This document shows positions 4,465-55,469 of a DNA stretch of 64,000 bases, piece by piece. The position numbers were made by a program, and so were the translations under genes. Under the pieces are notes generated by a model that ran no database searches, had not been told where the DNA came from, and worked only from the letters and a program-made list of their open reading frames with translations. Source of the DNA: Planktomarina temperata RCA23 (GTDB taxonomy: Bacteria > Pseudomonadota > Alphaproteobacteria > Rhodobacterales > Rhodobacteraceae); contig NZ_CP003984.1 of NCBI RefSeq assembly GCF_000738435.1, positions 682,001 to 746,000 on the forward strand. Direction: 5' to 3'. Each line of letters starts with the position of its first letter. Positions within the stretch are counted from its first letter, which is position 1.

Positions 4465-4541
4465 GGCGGTATAGCTCAGTTGGTTAGAGCAGCGGAATCA
4501 TAATCCGCGTGTCCGGGGTTCAAGTCCCTGTGCCGCTACCA
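4465..4541 (+). tRNA. tRNA-Met (anticodon CAT), integration target
   Basis: This is a 77-base cloverleaf. The acceptor arm GGCGGTA pairs with TGCCGCT (first pair G-U). It has a D-arm 'AGCTCAGTTGGTTAGAGC', anticodon stem GCGGA/TCCGC and a seven-base loop with CAT at 4499-4501. The T-arm is 'GGGGTTCAAGTCCC' and the encoded end is ACCA. CAT can be elongator tRNA-Met or a lysidine-modified tRNA-Ile2. The elongator is preferred from the resemblance to alphaproteobacterial Met tRNAs. The gene's 3' portion from the anticodon loop onward is duplicated at 50350, which marks it as the attachment site of the tandem elements. Confidence 0.93.
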
Positions 4542-4546
4542 AACTT
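4497..4546 (+). repeat. Attachment-site repeat (attL of element A), tRNA-Met 3' part
   Basis: Fifty bases starting exactly at the anticodon loop and running six bases past the tRNA gene (counting the encoded CCA) are identical to 50350-50399. The base before (4496) and after (4547) differ between the two copies. An integrase gene follows both. This is the classic footprint of site-specific integration into a tRNA 3' end. Just beyond (4587-4599 and the matching 50440-50452) both copies carry the small inverted repeat TGTGC-GTA-GCACA and a second GCACA, candidate arm-type integrase sites or an int operator. Confidence 0.9.
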
Positions 4547-4651
4547 CCAATACTATCAATTACTTAACTTTTCGGTTGACGCATATTGTGCGTAGCACAC
4601 CTATAGCACAGTTTTTTCTAGCTTTCTGACTTTTTCTAGTGCAGAATCTGA

Positions 4652-6244
4652 GTGTTAAACACGGTGTTGATAGTGCCTAAATTGAACCCAAATACACCCA
4701 CGCTGATGGATGGTGAGGTTCGTCTTTTTAAACGCAAGCACAGCAAAGTCTGGCAAATTGCATTTACATTGGACGGACGACAGGTTCGCGTGAGCTCAAA
4801 GAAACGCATTTTAAATGATGCTGTGGCAGCGGCGCGTGAGATCTATTTAGACTATAGATTTAGGCAAAAGAACGGGCTGCCTGTGATCTCCAAACGCTTT
4901 GTAGATGTGGCTGCGTTGTGCCGTGCCACCATGAAGCAGCAGCTAGATAATGGCTTGGGTAAGAAGAGCTTTCGTGATTATATAATCGTAATTGATAAGT
5001 ATCTGGTTCCCTTCTTTGGTGATATTTTTGTGACCAGTATTGATTATGAGATGCTGCAAAAGTTTGCGCGCTGGCGTGAGGCAAAGATGGGACGAGAGCC
5101 AAGGTCGTCCACGCTCAACACACATAACTCTGCGTTAAACAGAATATTTGATGAAGCTGTTGCCCGTGGCTACATGAACAAGTCACAAGTGCCTGTGTTG
5201 GTAAACAAGGGTCGTGACAGTGTGCGCCGCCCTGACTTTACCCGTGAAGAGTATGCAACGCTTATACGCAAGTTACCCAGCTGGATTGATGCTGGGCGAG
5301 AGGGCAAGTCACGGGACATGCGGCATCTGCTGCGTGACTACATTCTCATTCTTGCCAATACAGGCATGCGGCATGGCACAGAAGCAGAGAACCTATGCTG
5401 GAAGCATATCAGTCTATTTGAAGACAAGGGTCTCAAATACCTTGAGATGAGCGTAACGGGTAAAACAGGGCGCCGTGATATCATCTGTAGGGCAGGTACC
5501 ATAAACTATCTCAAGCGCATTCAAAGTAGATGCCCTGATATAGCTGATATGAGCTTTGAGCAGTTGATCAAATCAAAACTAGATGTGCCTGTGTTTAGAC
5601 TTCCTGATGGCACAGCCAGCGCAAACCTGCGTCAGACGTTCAAGATATTTATGAAAGACACTGGACTGTTGACCTGTCCTCGCACGGGCCAAGATCGCAC
5701 GCTTTATAGCTTGCGCCACACCTATGCGACGTTCTCACTGCTTAATGATGGAATGGACGTACATACGCTTGCTGTTCAAATGGGCACGTCTATTTTGATG
5801 ATTGAGCGCCATTACAGCCATCTCACGCCGCGCCTGAAGAAAGAGATGCTCACGGGCAAGCGGTATGACACCCCTCATAAAGACTACACCGCTGACCTTT
5901 CCAACGGTTTTGCCGTCACAGATGAAGATTTGCAGCGCGCAATTGATGATGTGGAGATTGAAGAAAAGCTTCCCAACGAACCAAAAGCAACTGCTGTGGC
6001 TGAAGGCGGTTCAAAGCGCAGTGTAAATGCGAGCAGTGATACAAACGACAAGAACACGCAAGCCAGCTTAAAAGCGTTGGAAATGCTCAGCAGGGGGTCT
6101 TTATCAGAAAGGTCTGCCCTGGCAGTTATGGGCACACACCAAGACGCCTACAGTGTTGCGCCAGACCTACGCATCAAGGCGCTTGAACTGGTTGAAGAGG
6201 GTAAGCTGTCAGAAAGAGGGCTTATTGCTATTTTGGGCGTTTAG
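4652..6244 (+). CDS. Tyrosine-type site-specific integrase of element A
   Basis: The protein is 530 residues and presumably integrates and excises the element at tRNA-Met. The N-terminal third is basic with an arm-type DNA-binding look ('RLFKRKHSKVWQI'). A SAM-like core-binding region spans roughly residues 95-180. The catalytic domain shows the first arginine in 'NTGMRHGTEAENL', the second box 'YSLRHTYATF' and the nucleophile tyrosine in 'ERHYSHLTPRL'. An unusual ~120-residue C-terminal tail follows, ending in two repeat-like blocks ('LKALEMLSRGSLSERSALAVMG', 'IKALELVEEGKLSERGLIAILGV') that resemble each other. The first start codon is GTG 4652. Later GTGs and ATG 4706 are possible, as no strong Shine-Dalgarno decides. 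A near-identical copy lies at 50505-52097. Confidence 0.9.
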   Translation: MLNTVLIVPKLNPNTPTLMDGEVRLFKRKHSKVWQIAFTLDGRQVRVSSKKRILNDAVAAAREIYLDYRFRQKNGLPVISKRFVDVAALCRATMKQQLDNGLGKKSFRDYIIVIDKYLVPFFGDIFVTSIDYEMLQKFARWREAKMGREPRSSTLNTHNSALNRIFDEAVARGYMNKSQVPVLVNKGRDSVRRPDFTREEYATLIRKLPSWIDAGREGKSRDMRHLLRDYILILANTGMRHGTEAENLCWKHISLFEDKGLKYLEMSVTGKTGRRDIICRAGTINYLKRIQSRCPDIADMSFEQLIKSKLDVPVFRLPDGTASANLRQTFKIFMKDTGLLTCPRTGQDRTLYSLRHTYATFSLLNDGMDVHTLAVQMGTSILMIERHYSHLTPRLKKEMLTGKRYDTPHKDYTADLSNGFAVTDEDLQRAIDDVEIEEKLPNEPKATAVAEGGSKRSVNASSDTNDKNTQASLKALEMLSRGSLSERSALAVMGTHQDAYSVAPDLRIKALELVEEGKLSERGLIAILGV

Positions 6245-6350
6245 GCAGCTTTATGCAGAGGCCAATGCTTAAAGCGCTGCGCCGCTTCACTCAACTTCTT
6301 AGAGTTCACATTTATGTACCTGGATGTTGTAAGTATATCAGAATGACGAA
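6241..6350 (-). pseudogene. 3' fragment of a tyrosine recombinase gene
   Basis: Read on the minus strand, this stretch encodes 'HSDILTTSRYINVNSKKLSEA', which aligns with the C-terminus of the intact small recombinase at 18028-18594 ('HSHISTTQRYIDVNSEQLSEA'), including the catalytic tyrosine. It ends in a stop that overlaps the int stop codon. The rest of the gene is missing: upstream, the frame stays open for a while but shows no recombinase motifs. The same fragment sits at the same place in element B. It is therefore an old, inherited remnant and a diverged direct repeat of the sequence on the far side of the cargo. Confidence 0.65.
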
Positions 6351-6396
6351 TGGATTGCAGCCATTGGTTGAACTGTGCATGGATGGCTGTTTTGCG

Positions 6397-6800
6397 GACG
6401 AAACCGCCATTCAACTTTTTTGTTCGAAAGTCTGCATTCAGCGCATTGCGTATGCAGCGACAAACTGCAATGGCGGGTAGCAGGCTCCCGCTACCAGCGC
6501 AGCATCGACTCTATTTATTTGTGGTAGCCGACATTGGTGTCTCGACACTGGCAAAGCTCTCCACAAGACAGGAGCTTGCGACAGGATAATGAGTTGCATT
6601 CTGCTGGCGCAGTCCCCATCGCGTTTTTGATTCCTCGCAATTTTTTGTCAAAAATCGGATCAGCGCGCTAATGTTAGCGTCATATCTTGACGTCCAAATT
6701 CCAAGTGTTGAGGTTTCTGCCTGTTGAGCTAAGGACTGCATTGCGGTTGGTAAAAATGAAACATGACGACAAATTGGGCCGCTTTAAATCGGTTCAGTCA
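6397..6800. other. Non-coding left edge of the fucose cargo
   Basis: These 400 bases lie between the end of the duplicated left module and the end of the fuconate dehydratase gene. Short open frames exist on both strands but none has a recognisable domain or a plausible start. A weak inverted repeat, AGCGGGAGCCTGCTACCCGC-like (around 6473-6492 on the reverse strand), was seen. No promoter or clear terminator could be identified. Confidence 0.4.
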
Positions 6801-8078
6801 TCAGGTTTCAAAGGCGAAATCTTTCAACGTTTGCTCTTTAATTTCGATTGAAAAGCCTGCCCCGGTCGGAGGCATATATGCGGCGTTCTTGATCTTGCAG
6901 GGTGACACAAAATGTTCGTGCAGGTGATCGACATATTCGATGACGCGACCATCTTTTTTGCCGGAAACCGCAATATAGTCGATCATTGAAAGGTGCTGTA
7001 CGTATTCACACAAGCCTACACCCCCTGCATGTGGCCAAACTGGCAGATCGAACTTGGCGGCAAGCAACAGTACAGCTAATACTTCGTTCAACCCACCCAT
7101 GCGACAGGCGTCGATCTGGACAATATCGATGGCACCGCTTGCGATGAGTTGCTTAAAGATTATCCGATTTTGACACATTTCGCCTGTCGCGACCTTGATC
7201 GGTGCGACGGCTTTGCGGATAGCGGCATGGCCCAAAATGTCATCAGGGCTTGTTGGCTCTTCAATAAAGAAAGGGTTGGAAAACGCGAGATCACTCACCC
7301 ATGAGATAGCCTCGTCGACCTCCCAAACCTGATTGGCATCAATCATCATTTTCATATCATCACCGAGGGCTTCACGTGCAATCGTGAGCCGCCGGATATC
7401 TTCTGCGCGATCGCGGCCGACCTTCATCTTAACGTGGGTAAAACCTGCTTCTCGGGCTTCAACGCATAGCCGGCGCAACTTGTCGTCGGGGTAACCCAAC
7501 CAGCCAGCGGAAGTTGTATAACAGGGGTAGCCATTTTGCTTCAAATCCGCGATTCGGTTTTCTTTTCCGTCTTGTGCGCGGCGCAAAATTTCCAGCGCCT
7601 CATTGGGTGTTAGTTGATCGGTCAGGTATCTAAAATCGACAATGCCCACGACTTGCTCGGGCGTCATTTCTGCGACCAGTTGCCAAACTGGTTTATCATC
7701 GGCCCGCGCCCACAGATCCCACAAGGCATTGACGACAGCACCCGTTGCGAGGTGCATGGCACCCTTGTCGGGGCCAATCCAGCGTAGCTGACTGTCTCCA
7801 GTTAGGCGTCGCCAAACCCCAGCTGGATCTTGCTTTAAGTCCTCAAGCGTAAGGCCAACGATGAGGTGCTTCGTGGCCGCGATGGCCGCACAGCAAATTT
7901 CATTCCCGCGCCCAATCGTAAATGTAAGCCCGTGGCCCGACAACCCTTCTGTATCCGTCTCTAGGATCACATAGGCGGCAGAGTAGTCGGGATCTGGGTT
8001 CATTGCGTCTGACCCGTCAAGCGATTGGGATGTCGGAAAGCGCAGATCAATGGTCTGCAGGCCGGTGATTGTGGTCAT
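6801..8078 (-). CDS. L-fuconate dehydratase (enolase superfamily)
   Basis: This enzyme dehydrates L-fuconate to 2-keto-3-deoxy-L-fuconate. The protein is 425 residues, the length of the FucD/ENOSF1 group rather than the shorter mandelate racemases. Diagnostic blocks are 'PCYTTSAGWLGYPDDKL', the base motif 'VKMKVGRD' (KxK), metal ligands in 'MMIDANQVW', 'FIEEPTSPDD' and 'VATGEMCQN', and 'VWPHAGGVGLCEYVQH'. ATG 8078 is preferred to the TTG at 8090 because it follows the upstream stop (8091) with a normal gap. It is the last gene of the minus-strand operon. All four other enzymes of the oxidative L-fucose route lie directly upstream, which supports the substrate. Confidence 0.92.
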   Translation of the reverse strand: MTTITGLQTIDLRFPTSQSLDGSDAMNPDPDYSAAYVILETDTEGLSGHGLTFTIGRGNEICCAAIAATKHLIVGLTLEDLKQDPAGVWRRLTGDSQLRWIGPDKGAMHLATGAVVNALWDLWARADDKPVWQLVAEMTPEQVVGIVDFRYLTDQLTPNEALEILRRAQDGKENRIADLKQNGYPCYTTSAGWLGYPDDKLRRLCVEAREAGFTHVKMKVGRDRAEDIRRLTIAREALGDDMKMMIDANQVWEVDEAISWVSDLAFSNPFFIEEPTSPDDILGHAAIRKAVAPIKVATGEMCQNRIIFKQLIASGAIDIVQIDACRMGGLNEVLAVLLLAAKFDLPVWPHAGGVGLCEYVQHLSMIDYIAVSGKKDGRVIEYVDHLHEHFVSPCKIKNAAYMPPTGAGFSIEIKEQTLKDFAFET

Positions 8079-8090
8079 GATATATTCCAA

Positions 8091-8933
8091 TCAGTCTTGT
8101 GTTATGGTTTGCTGCTGGCGACCAAGACCTTCGACTTCCAACTCCACCTTGTCTCCTGGCGCAAGGTAGCGCGGTGGGGACATGCCCATACCGACACCGG
8201 GTGGCGTTCCTGTAGAAATGATGTCGCCCGGTTGTAGCGACATGAAGCGGCTCAGGTAGGACACCAAAAATGCCACGCTGTAGATCATTGTGTTGGTTGA
8301 CCCATCTTGCATTTTTTTGCCATTCACCGTTAGCCACATAGGCAAATTTTGCGGGTTCGGTACGTCGTCTGGAGTCACGAGCCAGGGACCAATAGGGCCG
8401 AAAGTGTCAGCCGATTTGCCCTTGGTCCATTGGCCTTCATGTTCAATCTGAAACGCTCGTTCTGACACGTCATGCACGGTGCAATAACCAGCCACGTAAC
8501 CTGGAGCCTCAGCTTCGGTGACATATTTCGCAGTGCGACCGATCACGACGCCCAGTTCTACCTCCCAATCAGTTTTGGTTGAACCGCGTGGAATATGAAC
8601 CGCGTCATTCGGGCCGCAGATCGCGGAAGTCGCTTTCATAAAAATAATAGGTTCTGGCGGAACGATCGCACCGGTTTCGGCAGCGTGGTCGGAATAGTTC
8701 AGGCCGATGCAAATGAACTTTCCTGTGCCCGCCACAGGTGGCCCCAACCGTGGGTTGCCAGACACCGCGGGCAGTAAGTTTGTGTCAAGTTTGGCAAGCT
8801 CTGTCAGCTTCATCGGGTCCAGCATTGCACCGCTGAGGTCCGCAATTTCTCCACTCAGATCACGCAGTGTACCGTCGGTATCAATCAGGGCAGGTTTCTC
8901 GGAGCCAGGGGTTCCAAACCGTAAAAATCTCAT
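8091..8933 (-). CDS. FAH-family hydrolase, likely 2,4-diketo-3-deoxy-L-fuconate hydrolase
   Basis: This is a 280-residue fumarylacetoacetate hydrolase-fold protein. Features are 'IGLNYSDHA' with conserved surroundings, the metal-binding acidic residues of 'WEVELGVVIG', 'GYCTVHDVSER', 'KGKSADTFGPIGPWL' and 'DIISTGTPPGVGMG'. In the oxidative L-fucose pathway this family cleaves 2,4-diketo-3-deoxy-L-fuconate to pyruvate and L-lactate. The start at ATG 8933 gives the canonical 'MRFLRFG' N-terminus. The frame also runs open upstream through a hexanucleotide repeat (8941-8976) that supplies the AAGG-type ribosome-binding sequence. A paralogue is encoded at 27963-28817. Confidence 0.9.
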   Translation of the reverse strand: MRFLRFGTPGSEKPALIDTDGTLRDLSGEIADLSGAMLDPMKLTELAKLDTNLLPAVSGNPRLGPPVAGTGKFICIGLNYSDHAAETGAIVPPEPIIFMKATSAICGPNDAVHIPRGSTKTDWEVELGVVIGRTAKYVTEAEAPGYVAGYCTVHDVSERAFQIEHEGQWTKGKSADTFGPIGPWLVTPDDVPNPQNLPMWLTVNGKKMQDGSTNTMIYSVAFLVSYLSRFMSLQPGDIISTGTPPGVGMGMSPPRYLAPGDKVELEVEGLGRQQQTITQD

Positions 8934-8940
8934 AATATTG

Positions 8941-8976
8941 CCTTTGCCTTTGCCTTTGCCTTTGCCTTTGCCTTTG
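8941..8976 (-). repeat. Hexanucleotide tandem repeat (CAAAGG)6 forming the ribosome-binding region
   Basis: Six perfect copies of CCTTTG on the plus strand (CAAAGG on the coding strand) fill the gap between the SDR stop codon (8977-8979) and the FAH hydrolase start (8933). Each unit contains an AAAGG core resembling a Shine-Dalgarno sequence. The copy closest to the start lies 7 bases from the ATG. Repeat-number change by slippage would alter spacing and number of ribosome sites without shifting any reading frame. Confidence 0.95.
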
Positions 8977-9708
8977 TCATATCGTCCAACCACCGTCGAT
9001 GGCATAAGCTTGGCCCGTGGTGTAGGTGGCGCCAGCTAAGTACACGACAAGCTCGGCAATCTCTTGCGGCGTTCCGATACGGCCAATAGGCTGACGGGCG
9101 ACAAATTCCGCGTGGTTTTTTTTATAGTTACCATCGGCGCCTAGCCGCGCTTGCAATGACGGGCTTTCGACTGTGCCGGGACAGATCGCATTGCACCGAA
9201 TACTTTGGGCGACAAAATCTGCAGCAATGGACTTTGTCAATCCGATCACGGCCGCTTTTGAAATTGTATAGGCCGCACGATTTGGCACGCCTTTCACACT
9301 AGAGGCCACGGAAGACATGTTGATGATCGTGCCATCGCCGCGCTCCAGCATTTTGGGTAGAATAGCCTGAACCATTCGCACCATCGCTCGCACATTCAGG
9401 TCGAGGGCAAAGTCCAGATCCGCCTCGGGCATTTCAAGAACAGAGCCCGAGTGAACCACGCCGGCGCAATTAAAAAGAATATCACAGGGGCCAAAAGATG
9501 CGCAAAAATCTGCGACTTGCAACGCGTCCAGCACATCCAGTTTTTGACAGTCAATGCCATACAGGCCGGAAAGTTCTGCGAGGGTGTCCTCGTTGATATC
9601 GGTTGCAATTACGCGCGCGCCGGCTTTGGCCAACTCAATAGCAGCTGCCCTGCCGATCCCTTGCCCAGCAGCCGTAATAAGTGCAGTTTTAGATGTGAGA
9701 TCAGTCAT
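8977..9708 (-). CDS. SDR, likely 2-keto-3-deoxy-L-fuconate dehydrogenase
   Basis: This is a 243-residue classical short-chain dehydrogenase. It has the nucleotide-binding glycine motif 'TAAGQGIGRA', an acidic residue after strand 2 ('ATDINED') indicating NAD(H), 'NCAGVVH', catalytic serines in 'MSSVASS', 'YTISKAAVIG' (YxxxK) and 'CPGTVESPS'. It would oxidise 2-keto-3-deoxy-L-fuconate to the 2,4-diketo acid. The internal ATG 9708 is chosen: it overlaps the end of the lactonase gene by 8 bases (translational coupling) and yields the normal N-terminus. A close paralogue is at 27204-27950. Confidence 0.9.
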   Translation of the reverse strand: MTDLTSKTALITAAGQGIGRAAAIELAKAGARVIATDINEDTLAELSGLYGIDCQKLDVLDALQVADFCASFGPCDILFNCAGVVHSGSVLEMPEADLDFALDLNVRAMVRMVQAILPKMLERGDGTIINMSSVASSVKGVPNRAAYTISKAAVIGLTKSIAADFVAQSIRCNAICPGTVESPSLQARLGADGNYKKNHAEFVARQPIGRIGTPQEIAELVVYLAGATYTTGQAYAIDGGWTI

Positions 9709-10579
9709 TTTCGGGGCTTTCCAATTTGACGTTTTGTTTAGTCCGTGGATACCAAGTGGCAGCACAATTGTGCCAAAGGGAAGCCTGTTCAGGGGGGCTG
9801 AAACCATGTGCCTGAACCCAAGACGCAAGGCTTGCCTCCCAAGTTTGTTCCGGCGCGGTCAATTGCACGACCGGGAAATTACTGGCGGCCATCAAGCGGT
9901 CTGTACCAAACTGGGCAAGTACGAAATCCATCACTGCAAATAAAGTGTGGTCAGGTGGCATCATCGCATAGGGTTCGATCAAACCAGACAATTTGGTTGC
10001 AACATTTGGGCGTGTGGCCAGTTTTTGTAACCGGTCACGCCATATCTGATCTGCCATAGCGTTTTGGGGTGGTAGACCGCAGTGGTCCACCACAATCTTG
10101 CCAGAGATCGCACCGGCAAGGTCATAAGCAAAATCAAGCTGAGCAGAGAGGGCCAACAATTCAATTGTGACGTCATTTTTGGCTAGCAATGACAAGACCG
10201 CCATCGGTCTCACAGCTAGCAATTGTGCGGGCGTGGTCATTCTGTTGAGCATCAACCGCACCCCACAAACACGCGGTTGCGCAATAAGACACTCAGCGCG
10301 ATCCAAAGCATCGTTTGCCGTTGGGTCAATCCACGCGACCACGCCTGCAATCGTGCTCAACCGTGCTGTATGCTCGATCAACCAGTCGGAATGAGCATTA
10401 TCAGGGGCAGATTGCACCAGAATCGCGCGGCTAAATCTACTGCCCGTTAAATGCGCGCTCAATGCATCGCTTGTCGCTCTATCGTTCAGTTCAGGGTGAG
10501 CATCACAAATCAATATGTCGTCCCGACGCTGGGCATCCCAAATGTGGACATGGGCGTCTATCGCATTTGCATTTCTCAT
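9701..10579 (-). CDS. Amidohydrolase-2 family lactonase, likely L-fucono-1,5-lactonase
   Basis: The 292-residue protein begins with 'AIDAHVHIWD', the metal-binding HxH of amidohydrolase family 2. It continues with 'GVVAWIDP', 'GVRLML', 'IVVDHCG' (third histidine) and 'NVATKLSGL', and closes with 'DRLMAASNFPV', where the catalytic aspartate usual in this position ('GSDWP') appears replaced by N in 'ASNFP'. The family includes L-fuconolactonase and L-rhamnono-lactonase, and the neighbours point to fuconolactone. ATG 10579 overlaps the upstream TGA by 4 bases (ATGA), so it is translationally coupled to the aldo-keto reductase gene. Confidence 0.87.
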   Translation of the reverse strand: MRNANAIDAHVHIWDAQRRDDILICDAHPELNDRATSDALSAHLTGSRFSRAILVQSAPDNAHSDWLIEHTARLSTIAGVVAWIDPTANDALDRAECLIAQPRVCGVRLMLNRMTTPAQLLAVRPMAVLSLLAKNDVTIELLALSAQLDFAYDLAGAISGKIVVDHCGLPPQNAMADQIWRDRLQKLATRPNVATKLSGLIEPYAMMPPDHTLFAVMDFVLAQFGTDRLMAASNFPVVQLTAPEQTWEASLASWVQAHGFSPPEQASLWHNCAATWYPRTKQNVKLESPEND

Positions 10580-11475
10580 GGTTGCAGACCCATTTGCGCG
10601 ACGTTTTCCCAAAACTCGGCTGGGATATTGGTCTTCAATGCAGTCAAGTTGTCTTCAAGTTGGCTGGTCGATGAAACACCCAATAAAAGGGTGCCAACCG
10701 CCGGATGGCGGGTGGGGAAAGCCAAAGCAGCGCTAATCAAAGGGATGGCACTTACCTGTGCAAGATCATGTATTTTAGTTGCAGCTTGGCGCTCAGTCAC
10801 GGTCGCGGCGCGATAATCAAACGATGCCCCTTCAGCCGGCCGCTTCGCGAGCAAGCCTGAGTTCAACACGCCACCGGCCACAACGGCGGTACCTTTATGT
10901 TCACATAACGGCAACAGGTCTTGTGCCGCGCTTCGGTCAAGCAAGGTCCAACGCCCGGCCACCAAAACAACATCCGCAGCGCCTGCATTGATGGCCGCAA
11001 GCAATCCAGCATTGGAATTGCATCCAGCACCGATCATGCCGATCTCGCCCTTTCTTTGCAGGTCTTTTAAAACAGGTAGAGCCTCCGTCAATGCAGCCTC
11101 GGGATCCATTTCGATGTCATGTAGGAAAACGCAATCCAGATGATCACGACCCAATCGATCCTGTGACCGCCGAATGGAGGCACGGGTAGCCGCTTCCGAA
11201 AAGTTCCAAATATCAGGCGTGCCTGCTGAGCCCGGCGCAGCAGCGCCGAGTTCGCGATACCTGCCAACCTTTGTGGACACGAAAATGTCACTTACCGCCT
11301 GCGATTTTAGGACTTCTCCAAGCCGAATCTCGGCCTGCCCACCACCGTAAAGCGCGGCGGTATCAAAGTACTTGATCCCTTTATCCAATGCGGTCCATAG
11401 CGCCCGCTGGGCCTCTGACGCGTCAATAAGCGCAAGGGCGGCTGTGCCGAGACCAAGATCAGGGAGCTTTCCCAT
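10576..11475 (-). CDS. Aldo/keto reductase, likely L-fucose dehydrogenase
   Basis: The protein is 299 residues with the aldo-keto reductase tetrad pattern: 'FDTAALYGGGQAE' (Asp, Tyr), the lysine of 'STKVGR' and a histidine in 'CVFLHDIE'. It is closest in style to the D-threo-aldose 1-dehydrogenase / L-fucose dehydrogenase group, which oxidises L-fucose to L-fuconolactone with NAD(P)+. It begins at an ATG that shares one base with the stop of the preceding permease gene (TAATG) and is followed by the coupled lactonase. The assignment to fucose rests on the complete downstream pathway. Confidence 0.85.
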   Translation of the reverse strand: MGKLPDLGLGTAALALIDASEAQRALWTALDKGIKYFDTAALYGGGQAEIRLGEVLKSQAVSDIFVSTKVGRYRELGAAAPGSAGTPDIWNFSEAATRASIRRSQDRLGRDHLDCVFLHDIEMDPEAALTEALPVLKDLQRKGEIGMIGAGCNSNAGLLAAINAGAADVVLVAGRWTLLDRSAAQDLLPLCEHKGTAVVAGGVLNSGLLAKRPAEGASFDYRAATVTERQAATKIHDLAQVSAIPLISAALAFPTRHPAVGTLLLGVSSTSQLEDNLTALKTNIPAEFWENVAQMGLQP

Positions 11476-12269
11476 TAGGAAACAAGGCCCCAGCGCCGCA
11501 CCGTTACGCGTTCAATTGGCACAAATAGCAGCCGATCAAGGGTCAACCACAAAACGCCAATGAGGATCATACCCAACACGACAATTTCTGTTTGATACCA
11601 CTGTACCGCTTCGAGGGTCATGTAGCCGATCCCGTTTGTTCCGGCAATCATTTCAGCGGCCACAAGGGCCCGCCAACCGTAAGCCATCGAAGTACGCAAA
11701 CCGACAAGGATCTGCACCAATGCACCTGGAACAACGACCGTTGTGATAACATCCCATCGGCTTGCTCCGTGTGATTGCGCCGCGCGATACAGGACTAGTG
11801 GAATTGACTGCACGCCAATCACAGTTGAATAGATTGAAGAAAAGAAGATCGTGTTTACAATCACAAAAAGCACGGACCCGCCGCCAACGCCGAACCAGAT
11901 AATGGCCAGCGGTACCCACGCAATACCCGCAATCGATTGAAAAAAACTAAGGACTGGTGTCAGGGTTTCAGCGACAGCGCGGTTTAGAGCGATCGCAAGC
12001 CCAACTGGAATGGCGATCAGATTGCCCAATATATAACCTGTCGCAAGCCGCTGTAAGCTTGCCCAGACCTCTGATAGCAAGCTTCCGTTAAGCAGCATAT
12101 CTTGGAATGTGCCCCAAACTTTCGCCGGTGATGGCAGTTTATAGGCCGGAATATCGGAAATGAGTGGTGCCATTGCCCATGCTGCCAAAACGACGATGAA
12201 TGGTAGAAGCCCTGTGACCAACGCCGGATTGATACGCGGCTTTGGTGGCATTTGGATTGCATTATTCAT
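11475..12269 (-). CDS. ABC transporter permease, NitT/TauT family (second permease)
   Basis: The protein is 264 residues with about six transmembrane segments and the EAA-type loop typical of SsuC/TauC-like permeases ('AAQSHGASRWDVITTVVVPGALVQILVGLR'-like region near residues 160-190). This is one of two different membrane subunits encoded back to back, separated by 3 bases. They probably form a heterodimer with the single ATPase encoded upstream. NitT/TauT importers usually carry small anions such as sulfonates, taurine or nitrate. Here the genes sit between a sulfatase and sugar-oxidising enzymes, which suggests an anionic (sulfated) sugar. Confidence 0.9.
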   Translation of the reverse strand: MNNAIQMPPKPRINPALVTGLLPFIVVLAAWAMAPLISDIPAYKLPSPAKVWGTFQDMLLNGSLLSEVWASLQRLATGYILGNLIAIPVGLAIALNRAVAETLTPVLSFFQSIAGIAWVPLAIIWFGVGGGSVLFVIVNTIFFSSIYSTVIGVQSIPLVLYRAAQSHGASRWDVITTVVVPGALVQILVGLRTSMAYGWRALVAAEMIAGTNGIGYMTLEAVQWYQTEIVVLGMILIGVLWLTLDRLLFVPIERVTVRRWGLVS

Positions 12270-12272
12270 GAG

Positions 12273-13094
12273 TCAGTTGCCCCCTTGGTTGCGGACAAGG
12301 CCCCAACGCACGATCGTTGCTTGTTCGACGGGGCGTAAAAGTAGCCGATCAATGAGCAACCACATAACACCCATCATAATCATGCCAACGACGACCCGAT
12401 CAGTTTGGCGTGTAGTCGCGCCATCAAAAATGAGGAATCCAATTCCGGATCCTGCAGCAATCATTTCGGCAAAAATAAGCCCACGAAACGCAAACCCCGC
12501 GCCGACACGAAAGCCAGTGATGATGTTAGGCAGCGCGGAGGGAATGATCACTGTGACAAGCACCTGCCAGCGTGTCGCGCCGAGTGTTTGCATCGCGTTG
12601 ATCAAAACATGTTGCACAGTCTGCACACCTGTAAGGGTGTTGTAGAGAACAGGAAAAAAAACAACATAGGCAATCGCAATCACGATGGTGTTGAAACCGT
12701 ACCCAATCCAAATGACCAGTAGCGGGATCCATGCAACCTCAACGATGGCATAGAAAAAATTGATGATTGGTCCCAAAAGGCGAGACCAGAAGCGTGACAG
12801 CCCAATCAACAAACCAAACGCCAAGCCAAGGCCCAACCCCGTGGCCACACTGACCGAATAACGGACTGCACTGTCGGCCACATATTCTGGTAAAATACCC
12901 TTTTGCGTCAAATCGATGAATGCCGCAAAAACGTCGCGGGGGGCCGGATAAAAATATGCGGGTAAATCAATAACCCACACAGAAACCTGCCAAGCAAATA
13001 GAACGCTAGCCACCCCAAGAACGCCGCGCCACTGCGCAGTTGAGATCATCGGGCGTCTGCGCATTTTGGATAAATCATTCGTTGCGTTTGTCAT
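12273..13094 (-). CDS. ABC transporter permease, NitT/TauT family (first permease)
   Basis: This is a 273-residue integral membrane protein with ~6 hydrophobic helices and a cytoplasmic coupling loop ('NAMQTLGATRWQVLVTVIIPSALPNIITGFRVG' region). The C-terminal stretch 'WLLIDRLLLRPVEQATIVRWGLV' closely parallels the end of the neighbouring permease ('WLTLDRLLFVPIERVTVRRWGLV'), so the pair arose by duplication. Its start overlaps the stop of the 108-residue protein gene by 4 bases. It is part of the importer proposed for a sulfated deoxy-sugar. Confidence 0.9.
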   Translation of the reverse strand: MTNATNDLSKMRRRPMISTAQWRGVLGVASVLFAWQVSVWVIDLPAYFYPAPRDVFAAFIDLTQKGILPEYVADSAVRYSVSVATGLGLGLAFGLLIGLSRFWSRLLGPIINFFYAIVEVAWIPLLVIWIGYGFNTIVIAIAYVVFFPVLYNTLTGVQTVQHVLINAMQTLGATRWQVLVTVIIPSALPNIITGFRVGAGFAFRGLIFAEMIAAGSGIGFLIFDGATTRQTDRVVVGMIMMGVMWLLIDRLLLRPVEQATIVRWGLVRNQGGN

Positions 13095-14208: not shown

Positions 14209-14213
14209 AGACC

Positions 14214-15254: not shown

Positions 15255-15292
15255 TGTAGATCCTCCCTTGATTTACTTTTGTTTTATCGGCC

Positions 15293-17421: not shown

Positions 17422-17427
17422 GGTCAA

Positions 17428-17454
17428 TACTAAGCACACAGTGAGTACTTAGTA
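17428..17454 (-). promoter_or_regulatory. Inverted repeat upstream of the GntR gene, candidate operator
   Basis: Perfect 7-bp arms TACTAAG (17428-17434) and CTTAGTA (17448-17454) lie 7 to 33 bases upstream of the GntR start codon. An additional TACT/AGTA half-site follows (AAATACT at 17454-17460). The position within the leader fits autoregulation of the fucose operon. The 20-bp centre spacing corresponds to two helical turns, but no match to a documented GntR consensus is claimed. Confidence 0.5.
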
Positions 17455-17460
17455 AATACT

Positions 17461-17970: not shown

Positions 17971-18027
17971 TGGGCTCGTAGCCGCCATTCGCTGCACCTT
18001 GTCCAAAGGTCCGCTAAGGCCTGATTG

Positions 18028-49337: not shown

Positions 49338-49427
49338 GGCATTGTCAGACAAACTTGACGCCCCATTGGTTGCCCCTTAATTTTTATGAATGACAACAGA
49401 AAATCCATTCAAATATTTTAAGAGTGC
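49338..49427 (+). mobile_element. Left-end remnant of the IS6-type insertion sequence
   Basis: GGCATTGTCAGACAAACTTGACG and the following sequence, including the transposase start ('NPFKYFKS'), match the first ~90 bases of the intact element at 55470. The match then stops. Orientation equals the right-end remnant at 24566-24755. The two partial copies bracket the 24.6-kb second cargo. Confidence 0.82.
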
Positions 49428-49747: not shown

Positions 49748-50349
49748 CTACATTAAAACCAGCCCTGAAGTGATCCGACTTGCAGTAATGATGTACGTTC
49801 GATTTCCGCTTTCTCTTCGTAATGTGGAGGACCTTCTTCATGAACGGTGCGTTGGCGTAAGTCATGTAACGGTTCGGTTTTGGTGGAGTTACCAAAAATA
49901 AAGGCTTCCCGTGGGAGAAAGGAAAGCCTTAGGTCGATTGCTGCTCGTTTCGACGGTGTTTTTGCCCGCCTTGTGCTATGAAAGCGATACTTTCCGAATG
50001 TTGGCAATAAATTTAATTCTGCGTTCGGTAATAAGCAATTATTTGCCTTTCGAAAAAAAATCTTAAACTCGTAATCTACTGCACATCTTGCCTTCATTTT
50101 TGCATAATTTGATCATCAGTTCTGCATTTAGGCACGATCAGATAAAACCACTTGAAGCGGGCAGGGCGGCTTTATAGGTAGTTATCGCAACATGATTTGC
50201 TGGACGCCATACAGATTTTGAGGCAGATTGTGCGTGTTGAACAGGGAGATTCTGCACTCTGTGCGTTAGGGTTTAGCGCATTTATTAGCACATCATGATA
50301 ATTCTGTTATAAGCATATGTTTTTAGATGTTTAAATTATGCCGCATTCC
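49748..50349. other. Decayed AT-rich right end of element A
   Basis: No gene was recognised in this stretch. It holds a hairpin (AAGGCTTCC...GGAAAGCCTT, 49901-49930). A 17-bp direct repeat CTTGAAGCGGGCAGGGC occurs at 49689-49705 and 50151-50167. The stretch ends at the att repeat. Confidence 0.5.
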
Positions 50350-50399
50350 ATCATAATCCGCGTGTCCGGGGTTCAAGTCCCTGTGCCGCTACCAAACTT
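50350..50399 (+). repeat. Attachment-site repeat (attR of element A / attL of element B)
   Basis: This is an exact copy of 4497-4546: the tRNA-Met sequence from the anticodon loop to CCA plus six bases. No tRNA 5' half precedes it, so it is a partial duplicate, not a gene. A second integrase gene follows at the same distance as in element A. Confidence 0.9.
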
Positions 50400-50504
50400 T
50401 CAATACAATCAACGGCTTAACTTTTCGGTTGACGCATATTGTGCGTAGCACACCTATAGCACAGTTTTTTCTAGCTTTCTGACTTTTTCTAGTGCAGAAT
50501 CTGA

Positions 50505-52097
50505 GTGTTAAACACGGTGTTGATAGTGCCTAAGTTGAACCCAAACACACCCACGTTGATGGATGGTGAGGTTCGTCTTTTTAAACGCAAGCACAGCAAA
50601 GTCTGGCAAATTGCATTTACAATGGACGGACGACAGGTTCGTGTGAGCTCAAAGAAACGCATTTTAAATGATGCTGTGGCAGCGGCGCGTGAGATCTATT
50701 TAGACTATAGATTTAGGCAAAAGAACGGGCTGCCTGTGATCTCCAAACGCTTTGCAGATGTGGCTGCGTTGTGCCGTGCTAGCATGAAGCAGCAGCTAGA
50801 TAATGGCGTGGGTAAGAAGAGCTTTCGTGATTATATAATCGTGCTTGATAAGTATCTGGTTCCCTTCTTTGGTGATATTTTTGTGACCAGTATTGATTAT
50901 GAGATGCTGCAAAAGTTTGCGCGCTGGCGTGAGGCAAAGATGGGACGAGAGCCAAGGTCGTCCACGCTCAACACACATAACTCTGCCTTAAACAGAATAT
51001 TTGATGAAGCTGTTGCCCGTGGCTACATGAACAAGTCACAAGTGCCTGTGTTGGTAAACAAGGGTCGTGACAGTGTGCGCCGCCCTGACTTTACCCGTGA
51101 AGAGTATGCAACGCTTATACGCAAGTTACCCAGCTGGATTGATGCAGGGCGAGAGGGCAAATCTCGCGATATGCGGCATCTGCTGCGTGACTACATTCTC
51201 ATTCTTGCCAACACAGGCATGCGGCACGGCACAGAAGCAGAGAACCTATGCTGGAAGCATATCAGTCTATTTGAAGACAAGGGTCTCAAATACCTTGAGA
51301 TGAGCGTAACGGGTAAAACAGGGCGCCGTGATATCATCTGTAGGGCAGGTACCATAAACTATCTCAAGCGCATTCAAAGCAGATGCCCTGATATAGCTGA
51401 TATGAGCTTTGAGCAGTTGATAAAGGCACGATTAGAACAACCTGTGTTTCGGTTGCCTGATGGCACGGCGAGCGCAAACCTGCGTCAGACCTTTAAGATA
51501 TTTATGAAAGACACTGGACTGTTGACCTGTCCTCGCACGGGCCAAGATCGCACGCTTTATAGTTTGCGCCACACCTATGCCACGTTCTCATTGCTTAATG
51601 ATGGAATGGACGTACATACGCTTGCTGTTCAAATGGGCACGTCTATTTTGATGATTGAGCGCCATTACAGTCATCTCACGCCGCGCCTGAAGAAAGAGAT
51701 GCTCACAGGTAAGAGGTATGACACCCCTCATAAAGACTTCACCGCTGACCTCTCCAACGGTTTTGCCGTCACAGATGAAGATTTACAGCGCGCAATTGAT
51801 GATGTGGAGATTGAAGAAAAGCTTCCCAACGAACCAAAAGTTACAGCTGTGGCCAAGTCTGGCTCAAAGCGCAGTGAGGCTACAAGCGATGAGGAAAACG
51901 TCAAGAACGCGCAAGCCAGCCTGAAGGCACTGGAAATGCTCAGCAGGGGGGCTCTATCAGAAAAGTCCGCCCTTGCAGCTATGGGCACACATCAAGACGC
52001 CTACAGTGTTGCGCCAGACATACGCCTCAAAGCCCTTGAACTTGTTGAGCAGGATAAGCTGTCAGAACGAGGGCTTACTGCTATTCTGGGTGTTTAG
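50505..52097 (+). CDS. Tyrosine-type site-specific integrase of element B
   Basis: This is a 530-residue protein of the same length as the element-A integrase and nearly identical through the DNA-binding and catalytic domains ('NTGMRHGTEAENL', 'YSLRHTYATF', 'ERHYSHL'). Differences cluster in the C-terminal tail ('SGSKRSEATSDEENVKNAQ' against 'GGSKRSVNASSDTNDKNTQ'), where the repeat-like blocks 'LKALEMLSRGALSE' and 'LKALELVEQDKLSE' are kept. Both copies look functional and would share the same tRNA site, allowing excision of A, of B, or of both. Confidence 0.9.
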   Translation: MLNTVLIVPKLNPNTPTLMDGEVRLFKRKHSKVWQIAFTMDGRQVRVSSKKRILNDAVAAAREIYLDYRFRQKNGLPVISKRFADVAALCRASMKQQLDNGVGKKSFRDYIIVLDKYLVPFFGDIFVTSIDYEMLQKFARWREAKMGREPRSSTLNTHNSALNRIFDEAVARGYMNKSQVPVLVNKGRDSVRRPDFTREEYATLIRKLPSWIDAGREGKSRDMRHLLRDYILILANTGMRHGTEAENLCWKHISLFEDKGLKYLEMSVTGKTGRRDIICRAGTINYLKRIQSRCPDIADMSFEQLIKARLEQPVFRLPDGTASANLRQTFKIFMKDTGLLTCPRTGQDRTLYSLRHTYATFSLLNDGMDVHTLAVQMGTSILMIERHYSHLTPRLKKEMLTGKRYDTPHKDFTADLSNGFAVTDEDLQRAIDDVEIEEKLPNEPKVTAVAKSGSKRSEATSDEENVKNAQASLKALEMLSRGALSEKSALAAMGTHQDAYSVAPDIRLKALELVEQDKLSERGLTAILGV

Positions 52098-52203
52098 GCA
52101 GCTTTATGCAGGGGCCAATGCTTAAAGCGCTGCGCCGCTTCACTCAACTTCTTAGAGTCCACATTTATGTACCTGGATGTTGTAAGTATATCAGAATGAC
52201 GAA
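52094..52203 (-). pseudogene. 3' fragment of a tyrosine recombinase gene (element B copy)
   Basis: This is the same minus-strand remnant as at 6241-6350 ('TTSRYINVNSKKLSEA'), with only a couple of base differences. It overlaps the int stop codon. Being present in both elements, it predates their separation. Confidence 0.6.
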
Positions 52204-52369
52204 TGGATTGCAGCCATTGGTTGAACTGTGCATGGATGGCTGTTTTGCGGGACTTTCCAGACCTTCGAAAGCTACGAAGATTAATAGTTGTGTACTAATG
52301 CGACCTTTAGTGGCAACTTTTTAGGAAAAGCAAATTCCGAGTTGAACCAAACAAAGTCAGGACTTCAAG

Positions 52370-53797
52370 ATGAGCGACACGGCCAATGAATTGATTAAAA
52401 TGACAGCAACCGAAGCCGTCGACCGTCTCCGTTCCAAGGAAGTGTCTCCACTTGACCTGGTCGACGCATCCATTCAGCGAATTGAAACTGTTGATGCCGA
52501 AGTTAACGCATTGCCTATTCATTGTTTTGAGCAAGCACAAGCAAAAGCAAAAGCAATCGATATCAAGGCGCATGCGGACAATCCAAAATCACTATGCGGC
52601 CTGCCAATCGCTGTAAAGGACTACAACGATCTTGGCGGCGTGGTAACAACTTACGGCTCTCCAATCTTTGCTGACAGTGTCGCGAAATCCTCTGACGCAA
52701 CGGTTCGACAGCTGGAGGGCAACGGCGCTATTGCTGTGGCCAAATCCAATGTCCCGGAATGGGCTGGTGGTCACACGTTCAACCCAGTCAACGGATTGAC
52801 GCGAAACCCATGGGACATGCGCAAAAGCGCAGGTGGTTCGTCAGGCGGTTCAGCAGCAGCTCTCGCCAGTGGATCGGTTTGGCTGGCGACTGGGAATGAC
52901 TTAGGCGGCAGTTTGCGCACTCCAGCCGCGTTCAATGGCATCGTCGGCTTGCGACCGGGGCCGGGCCGCGTGCCACGTGGGACCCGGCTGCCAGCCATGG
53001 ACACGCTTTGGGTGGAGGGGCCGATGGCCCGAAACGTTGACGACTTAGCGTTGATGCTGGATGCGGGTGTTGGTCAACAGATTGATGATCCATTATCTTT
53101 TGATCATGCTGGACCTTCCTTTGTGGAGGCACTGCAAGCATCAGGCATGCCCAACCGTGTTGCTTTTAGCCCTGACCTGTCGATTGTCTCGATGGAAAAA
53201 GAAATCGCGCAGGTCTGTGGTCGTTCAACATCTGTGTTTACGGATCTTGGTGCCGATGTAACCGATGACATCCCTGATTTCACAGGTGTGCTTGAGGCCT
53301 TTCAAACACTTCGGGCAGTCTTGTTCGCAACTCTGATGGAACCCATTTTGGCGCAGCATCGCGGCCAGATTGCGCCAGAGATCATTGGCAATATTGAGCG
53401 CGGGTTGAACATCACGCCATCACAAATATTCGAAGCAGAACGCGTACGTATCGAACTCTACAAGAAGGTTATTGCATTTTTCGAGACCCATGACTTTCTT
53501 ATCTGTCCAGCTGCATCCATTGCCCCATTTCCAGTTGAGCAGCGATATGTGACCGAAATCGATGGCAAGCCGTGCGAGACTTACATCGATTGGTTTTCTA
53601 TCACCTTTGCCCTGACCATGACGGCGTGTCCGACCATAAGCGTTCCTTGCGGATTTACATCCAAAGGACTGCCAGTTGGTGTTCAGATCATGGGTAAGCC
53701 TAGGGGGGAGGCTTCTCTCCTGCGGGTAGCAAAGCGATTTGAACAGGCTGTTGGAATTTCTGCGCAGTTGCCAATTGATCCTCGAACAGGCAACTAG
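52370..53797 (+). CDS. Amidase-signature family amidase (element B cargo)
   Basis: The 475-residue enzyme has the Ser-cisSer-Lys triad: catalytic lysine in 'LPIAVKDYND', the Gly/Ser-rich signature 'SAGGSSGGSAAALASG' and the nucleophile region 'GNDLGGSLRTPAAFNG'. Family members hydrolyse amides of carboxylic acids, including indole-acetamide and acylated amino compounds. Specificity is not readable. It is the only gene in the cargo slot of element B, with its own start region; there is no partner gene. Confidence 0.92.
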   Translation: MSDTANELIKMTATEAVDRLRSKEVSPLDLVDASIQRIETVDAEVNALPIHCFEQAQAKAKAIDIKAHADNPKSLCGLPIAVKDYNDLGGVVTTYGSPIFADSVAKSSDATVRQLEGNGAIAVAKSNVPEWAGGHTFNPVNGLTRNPWDMRKSAGGSSGGSAAALASGSVWLATGNDLGGSLRTPAAFNGIVGLRPGPGRVPRGTRLPAMDTLWVEGPMARNVDDLALMLDAGVGQQIDDPLSFDHAGPSFVEALQASGMPNRVAFSPDLSIVSMEKEIAQVCGRSTSVFTDLGADVTDDIPDFTGVLEAFQTLRAVLFATLMEPILAQHRGQIAPEIIGNIERGLNITPSQIFEAERVRIELYKKVIAFFETHDFLICPAASIAPFPVEQRYVTEIDGKPCETYIDWFSITFALTMTACPTISVPCGFTSKGLPVGVQIMGKPRGEASLLRVAKRFEQAVGISAQLPIDPRTGN

Positions 53798-53991
53798 ATC
53801 GAAGGCGTTGGAAGAGGTAACCAGTCGTTCTGGGATTAAAGAATAATTAATGGATCAAGGTAGTTCCGCTCGGAACGAAGTTGAGCATTCGCCCATTTCA
53901 GTATCGCAACCAAAAAGTGCAGTTATGGCTACATTGGGCTCGTAGCCGCCATTTTCTGCACCTTGCCCAAAGGTCCGCTAAGGCCTGATTG

Positions 53992-54558
53992 CTAAAGCAA
54001 CTCCACAGCTTCACTCAATTGCTCAGAATTCACATCTATGTATCTCTGTGTCGTGGATATATGCGAATGCCCTGCAAGAGCTGCAAGCAAGCGTACGCCT
54101 ACACCCTTATTGGCCAAACGGGTAATATATGTCCTGCGACCTGAATGACTGCTCGCGTCCTTGAGCCCAATTGCTTTGTATATGTCCAGAAACAGCTGGC
54201 ACATTGTGTTGGCCGAGAAGTGACCGCCCTTTTGACTGGCAAACAGCGGACGCTGTGGATCTGCGAGGCGTATATAATCACCATACTCGCGGAGAGCCTT
54301 ACGTAATCGCTGATTGAGATACACCGTGCGTGTTTGCCCACCTTTGCTCTGCTGTGCGCTTAGGATGAACTGTGTGCGAACAGCACCGTCCTCATCAAAT
54401 ATGTTGCCCACTGTGAGTGCTGCGATTTCCTTGGCTCGGAGCCCTGCGTAGAAACTAACCAGTATAATGGTCTCATCACGAATTGGATGACGTCTGCTGC
54501 GGCAGTAGTGTATAACCCTGCGCAGTTGAGCCTCATTTAGTGTTTGTGCCTGGCGCAT
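53992..54558 (-). CDS. Small catalytic-domain-only tyrosine recombinase (element B copy)
   Basis: The 188 residues are identical to the protein at 18028-18594 although roughly ten bases differ. All substitutions I could find are synonymous (for example in the codons near the 3' end and around 54188). Complete protein identity beside a diverged AAA+ partner indicates strong selection or gene conversion. Motifs are as in the A copy ('AGLRAKEIAAL', 'HSGRRTYI', 'QRYIDVN'). Confidence 0.9.
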   Translation of the reverse strand: MRQAQTLNEAQLRRVIHYCRSRRHPIRDETIILVSFYAGLRAKEIAALTVGNIFDEDGAVRTQFILSAQQSKGGQTRTVYLNQRLRKALREYGDYIRLADPQRPLFASQKGGHFSANTMCQLFLDIYKAIGLKDASSHSGRRTYITRLANKGVGVRLLAALAGHSHISTTQRYIDVNSEQLSEAVELL

Positions 54559-54744
54559 TGCAAACTCCCCTCAAAATCTAACGTTATGTTAGCTTTGAGT
54601 ATAAAGTCTGAGGTATTGGTCTTCCTACCGAAAAGACGCCTCGCCTGAAGATCATATTTTACAATGAGTTAAGCTAAAACCTCATACTATGTGTATTATA
54701 TGAGGTTTTGGGCTGTGTGATTGAGCTCAGGGTAATATCAGCGG

Positions 54745-55386
54745 TCAAAGCGTTGCCACTTTGCTGGCTATAACTGTCTCCTCGACGAGATCGATTAAAT
54801 CACGCGCAGTGCCATTAAAACTTTGCAGCATTTGGGCCACATCCTGTATTGTTGGATTTAGGCCTTCCGCCTGCAGCATACTTAATACACGTGGCACCCA
54901 ATCGGTGTTTGAGGGTGGATCTAGGTCTAGCACTCGAAAGCGTGACAGCATCGCGCCCATCATTCGGTTTTTATGGTTGGTCGTTGCCACAAAACGGATC
55001 AGATGGCGTTTGGTGTCCATAAACTCACGAAACTTTGGCTGCATACTACGCAGATCCATCTCGTCGATCTCATTGATGACAATCATCGCTTTGTCAGCGT
55101 TGCCAAACATCTGATAGTTTACTTCGGCCATAATCTTATCTTCAAAGTTTTTGCCGAGACTTGCGGCGTTGTGTTCCCAATGCATGTAGTGGTCCTGTGC
55201 ACGCAAAAAATGACTTTGGGCTATCACGCGCGCTGCTTCTGTTTTGCCCGCGCCGGGTGGTCCAGCCAACAACAAAGGTTTAGCTGGTGGTTGCTCGCAG
55301 TAAGACTTTATCACAGCCGCATTCAGCGGGTTGGCAATGACCAAATCGGCAAAAGTCTGCGGGAGATGTTTGAGGTCAAATGACAT
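54745..55386 (-). CDS. Clamp-loader-like AAA+ ATPase (element B copy)
   Basis: The 213 residues keep every ATPase motif of the A copy ('AGPPGAGKTEAA', 'MIVINEIDEMD', 'FVATTNHKNR', 'MLSRFRVL'). About a dozen substitutions include 'LDLDPPSN' for 'LAIDPPSN' and changes around 'SHFLRAQDHYMHWEH'. Its upstream partner gene is destroyed by the IS, so this copy may lack its cognate 272-residue protein unless the A copy supplies it. Confidence 0.85.
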   Translation of the reverse strand: MSFDLKHLPQTFADLVIANPLNAAVIKSYCEQPPAKPLLLAGPPGAGKTEAARVIAQSHFLRAQDHYMHWEHNAASLGKNFEDKIMAEVNYQMFGNADKAMIVINEIDEMDLRSMQPKFREFMDTKRHLIRFVATTNHKNRMMGAMLSRFRVLDLDPPSNTDWVPRVLSMLQAEGLNPTIQDVAQMLQSFNGTARDLIDLVEETVIASKVATL

Positions 55387-55469
55387 CCTCAGATCCTTTC
55401 AGTGAGTTTGCAGATCTATGGGACAGCGTAATGCTGCCCCATAGGTTGGCAGAAATTAGCCATACACGT

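Follow-up and report, generated by a model that had tools for sequence, protein, structure and literature searches.

The tRNA-Met locus of Planktomarina temperata RCA23 was analysed within a window of 64,000 nucleotides, corresponding to genome bases 682001-746000 of a single contig of 3,288,122 bases. The locus carries two integrative elements in tandem, designated A and B. Each contains a tyrosine integrase gene (int) and, converging on it, the gene of a small catalytic-core-only tyrosine recombinase of 188 amino acids (aa), designated r188, with unrelated cargo between the two. We consider it likely that A and B are tRNA-integrating islands resembling integrative and mobilizable elements (IMEs), which arose by tandem accretion and by module exchange at the int/r188 joint, mainly through recombination and deletion. 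The features needed first, in window positions, are the following (att, attachment site; IS, insertion sequence; J, a repeat described below).

4465-4541, + strand: tRNA-Met(CAT), the integration target (ARAGORN, Rfam)
4497-4541, + strand: 45-bp att repeat, the tRNA-Met 3' end, left border of A; recurs at 50350 and past the window
4652-6244, + strand: tyrosine integrase of A, 530 aa, with a C-terminal tail of about 130 aa (Pfam, PHROG)
6277-6345, - strand: r188 3'-end remnant (aa 164-186) beside the integrase of A
6398-17953, no strand: cargo slot of A, with catabolic enzymes, ABC importer, sulfatase and regulator (edges by DNA alignment; Pfam)
17924-18027, - strand: repeat J, adjoining the r188 stop codon; the homology of A and B breaks off within it, behind GAGCCCA
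18028-18594, - strand: r188 of A (Pfam Phage_integrase, E 1.5e-30; alignment)
18781-19422, - strand: AAA+ protein, clamp-loader-like, 213 aa (Pfam AAA; PHROG 168, E 9e-23)
50128-50349, no strand: common right end of A (94% and 88% matches elsewhere in the genome; also in G265, the closest genome of the genus)
50350-50394, + strand: att repeat separating A and B (DNA match to the tRNA-Met 3' end)
50505-52097, + strand: integrase of B, 94% identity with the integrase of A (Pfam)
52130-52198, - strand: r188 3'-end remnant beside the integrase of B
52251-53917, no strand: cargo slot of B, with an amidase gene at 52370-53797 (+) (edges by DNA alignment; Pfam)
53910-53991, - strand: repeat J after r188 of B
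53992-54558, - strand: r188 of B, same protein sequence as in A (Pfam)
54745-55386, - strand: AAA+ protein of B (Pfam)
55470-56273, + strand: IS cutting the backbone of B, transposase 55519-56220 (DDE_Tnp_IS240, E 6e-39; other copies in the genome)

Repeated blocks and a tandem array at tRNA-Met

The left blocks (4497-6397 and 50350-52250) are 94.7% identical over 1902 columns with two gap positions, and the right blocks (17954-19508 and 53918-55472) are 95.2% identical over 1555 gap-free columns, both with E = 0. These blocks, 1.90 and 1.56 kb long, enclose 11.6 kb of cargo in A and 1.7 kb in B, and comparison of the window DNA found no similarity between the two cargos. By Pfam, ten open reading frames (ORFs) of cargo A encode an enolase-superfamily enzyme, an FAA hydrolase, an SDR, an amidohydrolase, an aldo-keto reductase, an ABC permease, an ABC ATPase, an NMT1-type binding protein, a sulfatase and a GntR/FCD regulator, a content for which a fucose pathway is plausible. 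Cargo B consists of a single amidase gene (Pfam Amidase, E 8e-89), which has no DNA match elsewhere within the window. The right outer edge of the B block, at 55470, is the start of the IS, which we take to be IS6-like, and element A runs on beyond 19508 into more backbone genes.

The integrase of A (int530) matched Phage_int_SAM_5 above the Pfam cut-off and Phage_integrase below it, as well as PHROG 1 (E 3e-41). The invariant columns of the r188 alignment include R41, K72, H138, R141, H164 and Y173, presumably the usual catalytic set. The AAA+ protein also matched replication factor C models, far below their cut-offs.

Copies of the tRNA-Met 3' end recur at genome positions 732350, 779283 and 872426, the last two past the window, and a right end of about 200-220 bp directly precedes each of these three further att copies (att included, 732128-732399 matches 779061-779332 at 94%, and 732151-732411 matches 872227-872487 at 88%). 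Because these att copies each carry the common right end before them, element A could be delimited to 4497-50349 (45.9 kb), element B to 50350 through window-equivalent 97282 (about 46.9 kb), and a unit C to genome 779283-872425 (93 kb). A, B and C form a tandem array at one tRNA-Met. Unit C carries att and the right end, lies bounded by att repeats beside integrase-bearing units, and gave no int530 match; such an integrase-less, att-bounded unit next to a complete one is the arrangement of cis-mobilizable elements (CIMEs) and tandem accretion. Just outside attR of unit C lies a dispersed repeat of about 130 bp (genome 872524-872652; 6524-6652 of locus L027), and the query containing it gave 16 matches in this genome and 18 in G265.

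The first-pass annotation of this DNA had described the repeated blocks around unrelated cargo and read them as tandem integrative elements, and both observations stand: the blocks are about 95% identical, and the att copies and common right ends bear out the tandem arrangement. Its gapless alignment holds for the right block and not for the left, and its borders had to be moved, with att being the tRNA-Met 3' end, A ending at 50349, B ending near 97282, and the supposed right edge of B being that of an IS.

The left flank plus tRNA matched 18 of 20 genomes of the genus, some in short pieces only. G265 has an array of its own, with att copies at the same tRNA and mostly different content otherwise: behind two of the att copies stand pieces of int530, 141 and 118 aa long, and the parts common to both arrays are essentially att, the integrase N-terminus, the right end and IS copies. 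In G256, int530 is open over 530 aa at 95% identity and is followed by thiamine genes, encoding TenA (two), an ABC importer with an NMT1/THI5-like binding protein, ThiF, an FAD oxidoreductase and a phosphomethylpyrimidine kinase; the 8.6 kb left on the contig gave no r188 match. G255 keeps int530 up to aa 284; G266 (loci L228/L229) has the complete tRNA-Met with eight upstream bases twice, 12 kb apart, the second copy being followed by the first 34 codons of int530; and near the tRNA of G263 lies a piece of a distant recombinase (45%). No int530 match was found in the stretch fetched around the tRNA in G271, G267, G269 and G261.

A sister element lies at tRNA-Cys in the P. temperata RCA23 genome itself, between exact 45-bp repeats at 2370399 and 2391303, 20.9 kb apart. 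Its integrase gene is directly adjacent to r188, and we take it to represent the unoccupied state of the slot. With an integrase of their own and att sites at a chromosomal target (tRNA-Met, tRNA-Cys), these elements share one defining trait of IMEs.

A variable slot between integrase and r188

Relatives of r188 at E 1e-20 or better were present in 17 of 248 genomes of the host family, and a scan of named genomes returned 288 relatives, the best 80 of which were analysed as loci. Judged by record title, these 80 are mostly Rhodobacteraceae, together with a few further alphaproteobacteria (Novosphingobium, Labrenzia, Thalassobaculum) and metagenome-assembled genomes labelled Haliea and Halomonas; the island family thus appears to reside mainly in Rhodobacteraceae. 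In 55 of the best 80 loci, r188 is faced by a convergent integrase sequence, with a gap ranging from overlap to 8.8 kb, the other 25 comprising contig-cut loci and loci truly lacking an integrase, counted together. With outliers beyond 10 kb left out, the r188-integrase distance has a median of 993 bp (n=55) and the AAA-r188 gap ranges from 189 to 7354 bp (median 2758, n=22), whereas the p277-AAA gap, p277 being the backbone gene that adjoins AAA in relatives, stays at 62-225 bp (n=20). Since the latter distance varies little, the variability of the int/r188 gap is specific; on these distances, a second slot would lie between r188 and AAA.

The convergent int/r188 pair encloses content that varies from copy to copy. 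Among 45 slots of at least 100 bp, 13 of 990 pairs have DNA in common (E 1e-5 or better). Pfam was run on ORFs from 10 of 29 slots, hand-picked from the larger ones; the largest ORFs there encode hydantoinase (two), an AMP-binding enzyme, AcrB, a solute-binding protein, a TRAP transporter, an acyl-CoA dehydrogenase, an MFS protein, a helicase and an acetamidase/formamidase. The r188 of L074 reads with an internal stop, so that its gap (1493) and slot are wrong; this locus was excluded from the edge-position counts, the J edge counts and the int/r188 identity comparison. The slots of L099, L126 and L128 contain integrase pieces, which makes their integrase borders doubtful.

The integrases and r188 proteins are discordant between copies. 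For this comparison, 42 of 56 candidates were used (integrase reading of at least 350 aa, r188 longer than 170 aa). Over the 31 loci whose r188 shares 72% identity or more with that of A, the two identities correlate weakly (r = 0.24, Mantel p 0.013), and among pairs with r188 at least 88% identical, 34 of 84 have integrases below 45%, these pairs being non-independent. In strain XHP0102, two loci on one contig (L088 and L101), 20.5 kb apart, have r188 proteins 96% identical and integrases 37% identical. Across loci with r188 63-99% identical, the AAA protein is between 23 and 94% identical to that of A. The discordance and this wide AAA range indicate that integrase, cargo and backbone are all mosaic.

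In the Yoonia sp. M30B39 genome, three r188 copies (L122, L124, L134) stand in tandem on one contig, in steps of about 15 kb. Directly behind r188 in L079 and L103 lies a small gene whose product, by eye, looks like ribosomal protein bS21. Among the matches listed in our literature searches there was no paper on the r188/int island family.

A simpler view would be that the slot is a neutral gap between convergent genes, in which unrelated cargo piles up without any exchange mechanism. Convergent 3' ends are harmless places for insertion, and the second slot, between r188 and AAA, behaves alike. However, unrelated cargo sits between the same pair of edges in A and B, and a remnant of r188 is kept in both, which suggests replacement and not addition only, and the integrases differ as well. 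We therefore regard this view as rather unlikely, and module exchange at the joint as the better account.

The slot itself had been foreseen in the first-pass annotation and is borne out by different cargo at common edges in A/B and in the Nereida loci L078/L083, and the search that the annotation proposed for integrase and r188 with variable DNA between them has largely given the predicted result. Its picture of two modules as constant ends is not supported, given that the right end lies elsewhere and r188 and AAA are internal; nor is there support for r188 and AAA as one module, in view of the gap between them, or for the integrase as a fixed part, varying as it does against r188. Cargo does differ as proposed, but not while the ends stay constant: exchange around the joint beside r188 extends to the integrase and the backbone as well as the cargo. 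The earlier observation is thus real once its borders are corrected, and its interpretation is partly right, understating the mosaicism.

Cargo edges, r188 remnants and repeat J

On the integrase side, A and B part after ...TTTTGCGG, and on the r188 side after GAGCCCA. The Nereida loci L078 and L083, with different cargo at common edges, part on the integrase side after ...GTGCGG and on the r188 side after GAGCCCAT by eye, BLAST extending the match to ATGCTGCA. For the r188 side, 70 of 119 pairs were listed; in 31 of them the similarity ends 57-60 or 72-78 bp beyond the r188 stop codon, in the other 39 at different positions. Cargo edges therefore recur in some pairs.

A truncated r188 3' end, oriented as the intact gene, lies beside the integrase in A, B and L096, with scores of 70-79 where 245 shuffles reached at most 46 (95th percentile 32). 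The place also fits in L094, though its score of 29 is below that percentile. Deeper inside the slot, an r188 3'-end match was seen in L110 (E 1e-9) and L085 (E 0.002) and in none of the other slots scanned. Direct r188 3'-end repeats flanking the cargo were thus rejected as a general rule. Remnants beside the integrase would be expected if an older int/r188 joint had been cut and a second r188-bearing piece had entered, one possible route being a deletion between elements in tandem.

The r188-side edge lies in J, a dispersed intergenic repeat of Rhodobacteraceae, about 90 bp long, whose copies often form clusters with a common orientation (L151-L166, window 17924-18027); several unrelated families flanking it lose homology right after GAGCCCA (L151-L166). 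This genome has J at six places, two of which are those of A and B. The 400-bp blocks before J in this genome (L151, L153) have no clear coding reading and no Rfam match.

These edges raise the question of whether r188 is a dedicated cargo recombinase, moving J-bounded blocks in and out of the adjoining slot much as an integron does, with the integrase moving the element as a whole, a proposal that is compatible with tandem accretion and module exchange. Besides the invariant, presumably catalytic columns of r188 and the recurrent edge positions, several arrangements speak for it. A and B part at J on the r188 side and within a J-like stretch on the integrase side, as do the two Nereida loci. 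In SB2 (L071), r188 is followed by J, 7.3 kb and a second J in direct orientation. HTCC2083 has two 99% identical blocks of 1.1 kb containing the end of another integrase gene, about 14 kb apart (L154 5600-7300, L155 1-1171), each of which ends in J and diverges right after GAGCCCA, with an integrase frame that looks shifted. J was also found at 13 of 29 r188 edges and 8 of 30 integrase edges, against only 5 times in 111 kb of slot interior; these counts are partly circular, because edge copies trained the models, and a model built from 16 r188-side and three other copies detected 6 of 30 integrase edges, including two with E values of 0.01 and 0.05.

The distribution of J argues the other way. 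J was detected (E 0.001 or better) in 28 of 41 genomes of the host family, far more widely than r188 relatives, and for 37 of 40 further copies, taken together with roughly 2 kb of DNA to either side (less where a contig ended), the stretch had no recombinase at E 1e-4; the remaining three had one within 50 bp downstream, at 611 bp, and at 1.1 kb on the other side, respectively. As a general recombinase att site, J was accordingly rejected as a rule. The two edges cut J at different positions, more than half of the listed r188-side pairs end elsewhere, and J has no consensus structure (four single folds, z -0.27 to -2.0), so that a folded RNA-like element was discarded as well. We give the dedicated recombinase a low probability, and see only a slim chance that r188 and J constitute a second, independent integron-like platform that would exchange multi-gene catabolic blocks, and even integrases, at the r188 3' end. 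With most copies far from recombinases, J is best seen as a common intergenic repeat and a recurrent crossover place. Ordinary recombination rather than r188 would then swap the cargo, and an active role of r188 in exchange at J is possible.

That A and B stem from one tandem duplication followed by deletion and unrelated insertions, an account close to the alternative named in the first-pass annotation, would explain their same r188 remnant and left junction but is very improbable, since it fits poorly with about 5% DNA divergence in the common blocks, a B amidase unmatched elsewhere in the window, 11.6 kb of A unmatched in B, and the different array with the same ends in the close relative G265, which makes repeated insertion look like the normal mode here.

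Mosaic islands: machinery, proposed mechanism and meaning

Beyond the AAA gene, element A continues with further backbone genes and a second cargo block.

19492-20325, - strand: p277 (synteny)
20492-21271, + strand: p259 (synteny)
21494-21943, - strand: DUF3768 gene (Pfam, synteny)
21819-22277, - strand: p152, DUF6641-like, below the Pfam cut-off (PHROG 31551, E 1e-14; synteny)
22697-23323, - strand: p208, putatively HUH-type Rep-like (fold and HxH motif; alignment, model)
23919-24299, + strand: p126 (synteny)
24605-24756, + strand: remnant of an IS right end (94% to 56122-56273)
24757-49337, no strand: second cargo block of A (about 24.6 kb), between remnants of the IS that cuts B (Pfam), with a TRAP transporter, dehydrogenases, an enolase-superfamily enzyme, a sarcosine-oxidase-like protein, catabolic genes and others
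49338-49421, + strand: remnant of an IS left end (77% to 55470-55553)

From its model (pLDDT 80), p208 is probably an HUH-type Rep-like protein: three viral matches reached E 0.001 or better, of which one, the Replication gene A protein (E 7.5e-4), has a name; initiators of microvirus replication come next, from E 2e-3. The p208 alignment omits L074 and L088, which have stop codons. The p277 model was too poor to use. Pfam scans of 43 ORFs of A, at E limits of 0.001, 0.01 and 1e-5, found no secretion, relaxase, virion or conjugation family (the ORFs at 12273-13094 and 13091-13417 lie outside this set), a result that covers A and neither B past the window nor C. The type IV secretion genes of integrative and conjugative elements (ICEs) are therefore absent among these ORFs. 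The backbone ORFs had no relaxase family match in the Pfam and PHROG scans, no oriT search having been made. A plasmid or phage origin found no clear support: r188 gave one weak match in viral data and 46 phage records, all below 60% identity, its relatives in plasmids and phages not exceeding that value; p208 had no plasmid match, and neither p277 nor p208 had a relative confirmed in viral contigs.

We propose that each island inserts by its own tyrosine integrase at a tRNA 3' end, rebuilding that end, and that successive insertions at one tRNA would yield a tandem array, which then decays through IS elements. The backbone genes (r188, AAA+, p277, p259, DUF3768, p152 and p208) are scattered and turn up in varying subsets. 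The main cargo slot would be the intergenic joint between the convergent int and r188 genes, and the second the interval between r188 and AAA. Elements sharing r188 or intergenic repeats may recombine into new integrase, cargo and backbone combinations, or tandem neighbours may lose the DNA between them with the same outcome; in either case, breakpoints would pile up at the joint. We infer that the islands excise as circles and that p208 would drive rolling-circle replication or mobilisation of the excised circle, with a presumptive role for the AAA+ protein in the island.

Several points weigh against this scheme. The weak correlation noted above means that integrase and r188 are not fully independent, and several of the 55 integrase matches are short pieces (e.g. 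L087, L109, L110, L122, L124). Close pairs break at a few fixed J positions, tighter than plain homologous recombination predicts. The p208 model had no PDB match at E 0.001 or better, its top rows being unrelated and its best HUH match there the adeno-associated virus Rep domain at E 0.07. In B, neither p277 nor any later backbone gene has a DNA match, and tblastn of genome 746-906 kb found none either, so B may be immobile. A phage link is possible, given that p152 and some p208 relatives match PHROG families (5 of 9 p208 relatives match PHROG 10883, with E up to 1).

Resemblances to known systems are partial. In SXT/R391 ICEs, a conserved backbone likewise accommodates variable DNA at fixed intergenic hotspots. 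Unlike them, the islands described here have a varying integrase and no conjugation family among the scanned ORFs of A. With regard to integrons, the recurrent edges lie at a J that is mostly unlinked to recombinases and lacks a consensus fold. As far as the excerpt of PMC5704250 describes them, IMEs and CIMEs resemble A, B and C in site-specific integration, tandem complete and decayed elements, and att sites on integrase-less remnants; unlike those IMEs, the present islands have no recognised relaxase family in the ORFs scanned and possess a putative Rep-like protein, a clamp-loader-like AAA+ protein and an int/r188 cargo slot. GInts, in the passages of PMC5385486 available, likewise have two or more tyrosine recombinases, cargo that spans 2.5 to at least 70 kb and a short, poorly conserved far end, with a ginABCD operon at one end and ABC-transporter and ssb target genes; here, instead of three recombinase genes in one operon, int and r188 converge with cargo between them, and the target is a tRNA. 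The Dehalococcoides ssrA islands, according to the available part of PMC3146451, also combine a 540-residue integrase and a 200-residue small recombinase module with cargo of discordant history; their recombinases are serine recombinases, their target is tmRNA and their module genes are syntenic beside attL, whereas cargo separates int and r188 here. Tycheposons (PMC10872708, likened by the description in its excerpt only) share aquatic bacterial hosts, tRNA targets including tRNA-Met, a tyrosine recombinase and large cargo.

In r188, the island family has one strongly conserved gene by which it can be traced across many marine Rhodobacteraceae. The address (integrase and tRNA) and the payload (sugar, thiamine and transport genes) combine differently from copy to copy. 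Two questions can thereby be put to the test: how metabolic genes are acquired by abundant marine bacteria, and whether module exchange is catalysed by a tyrosine recombinase that consists of the core only.

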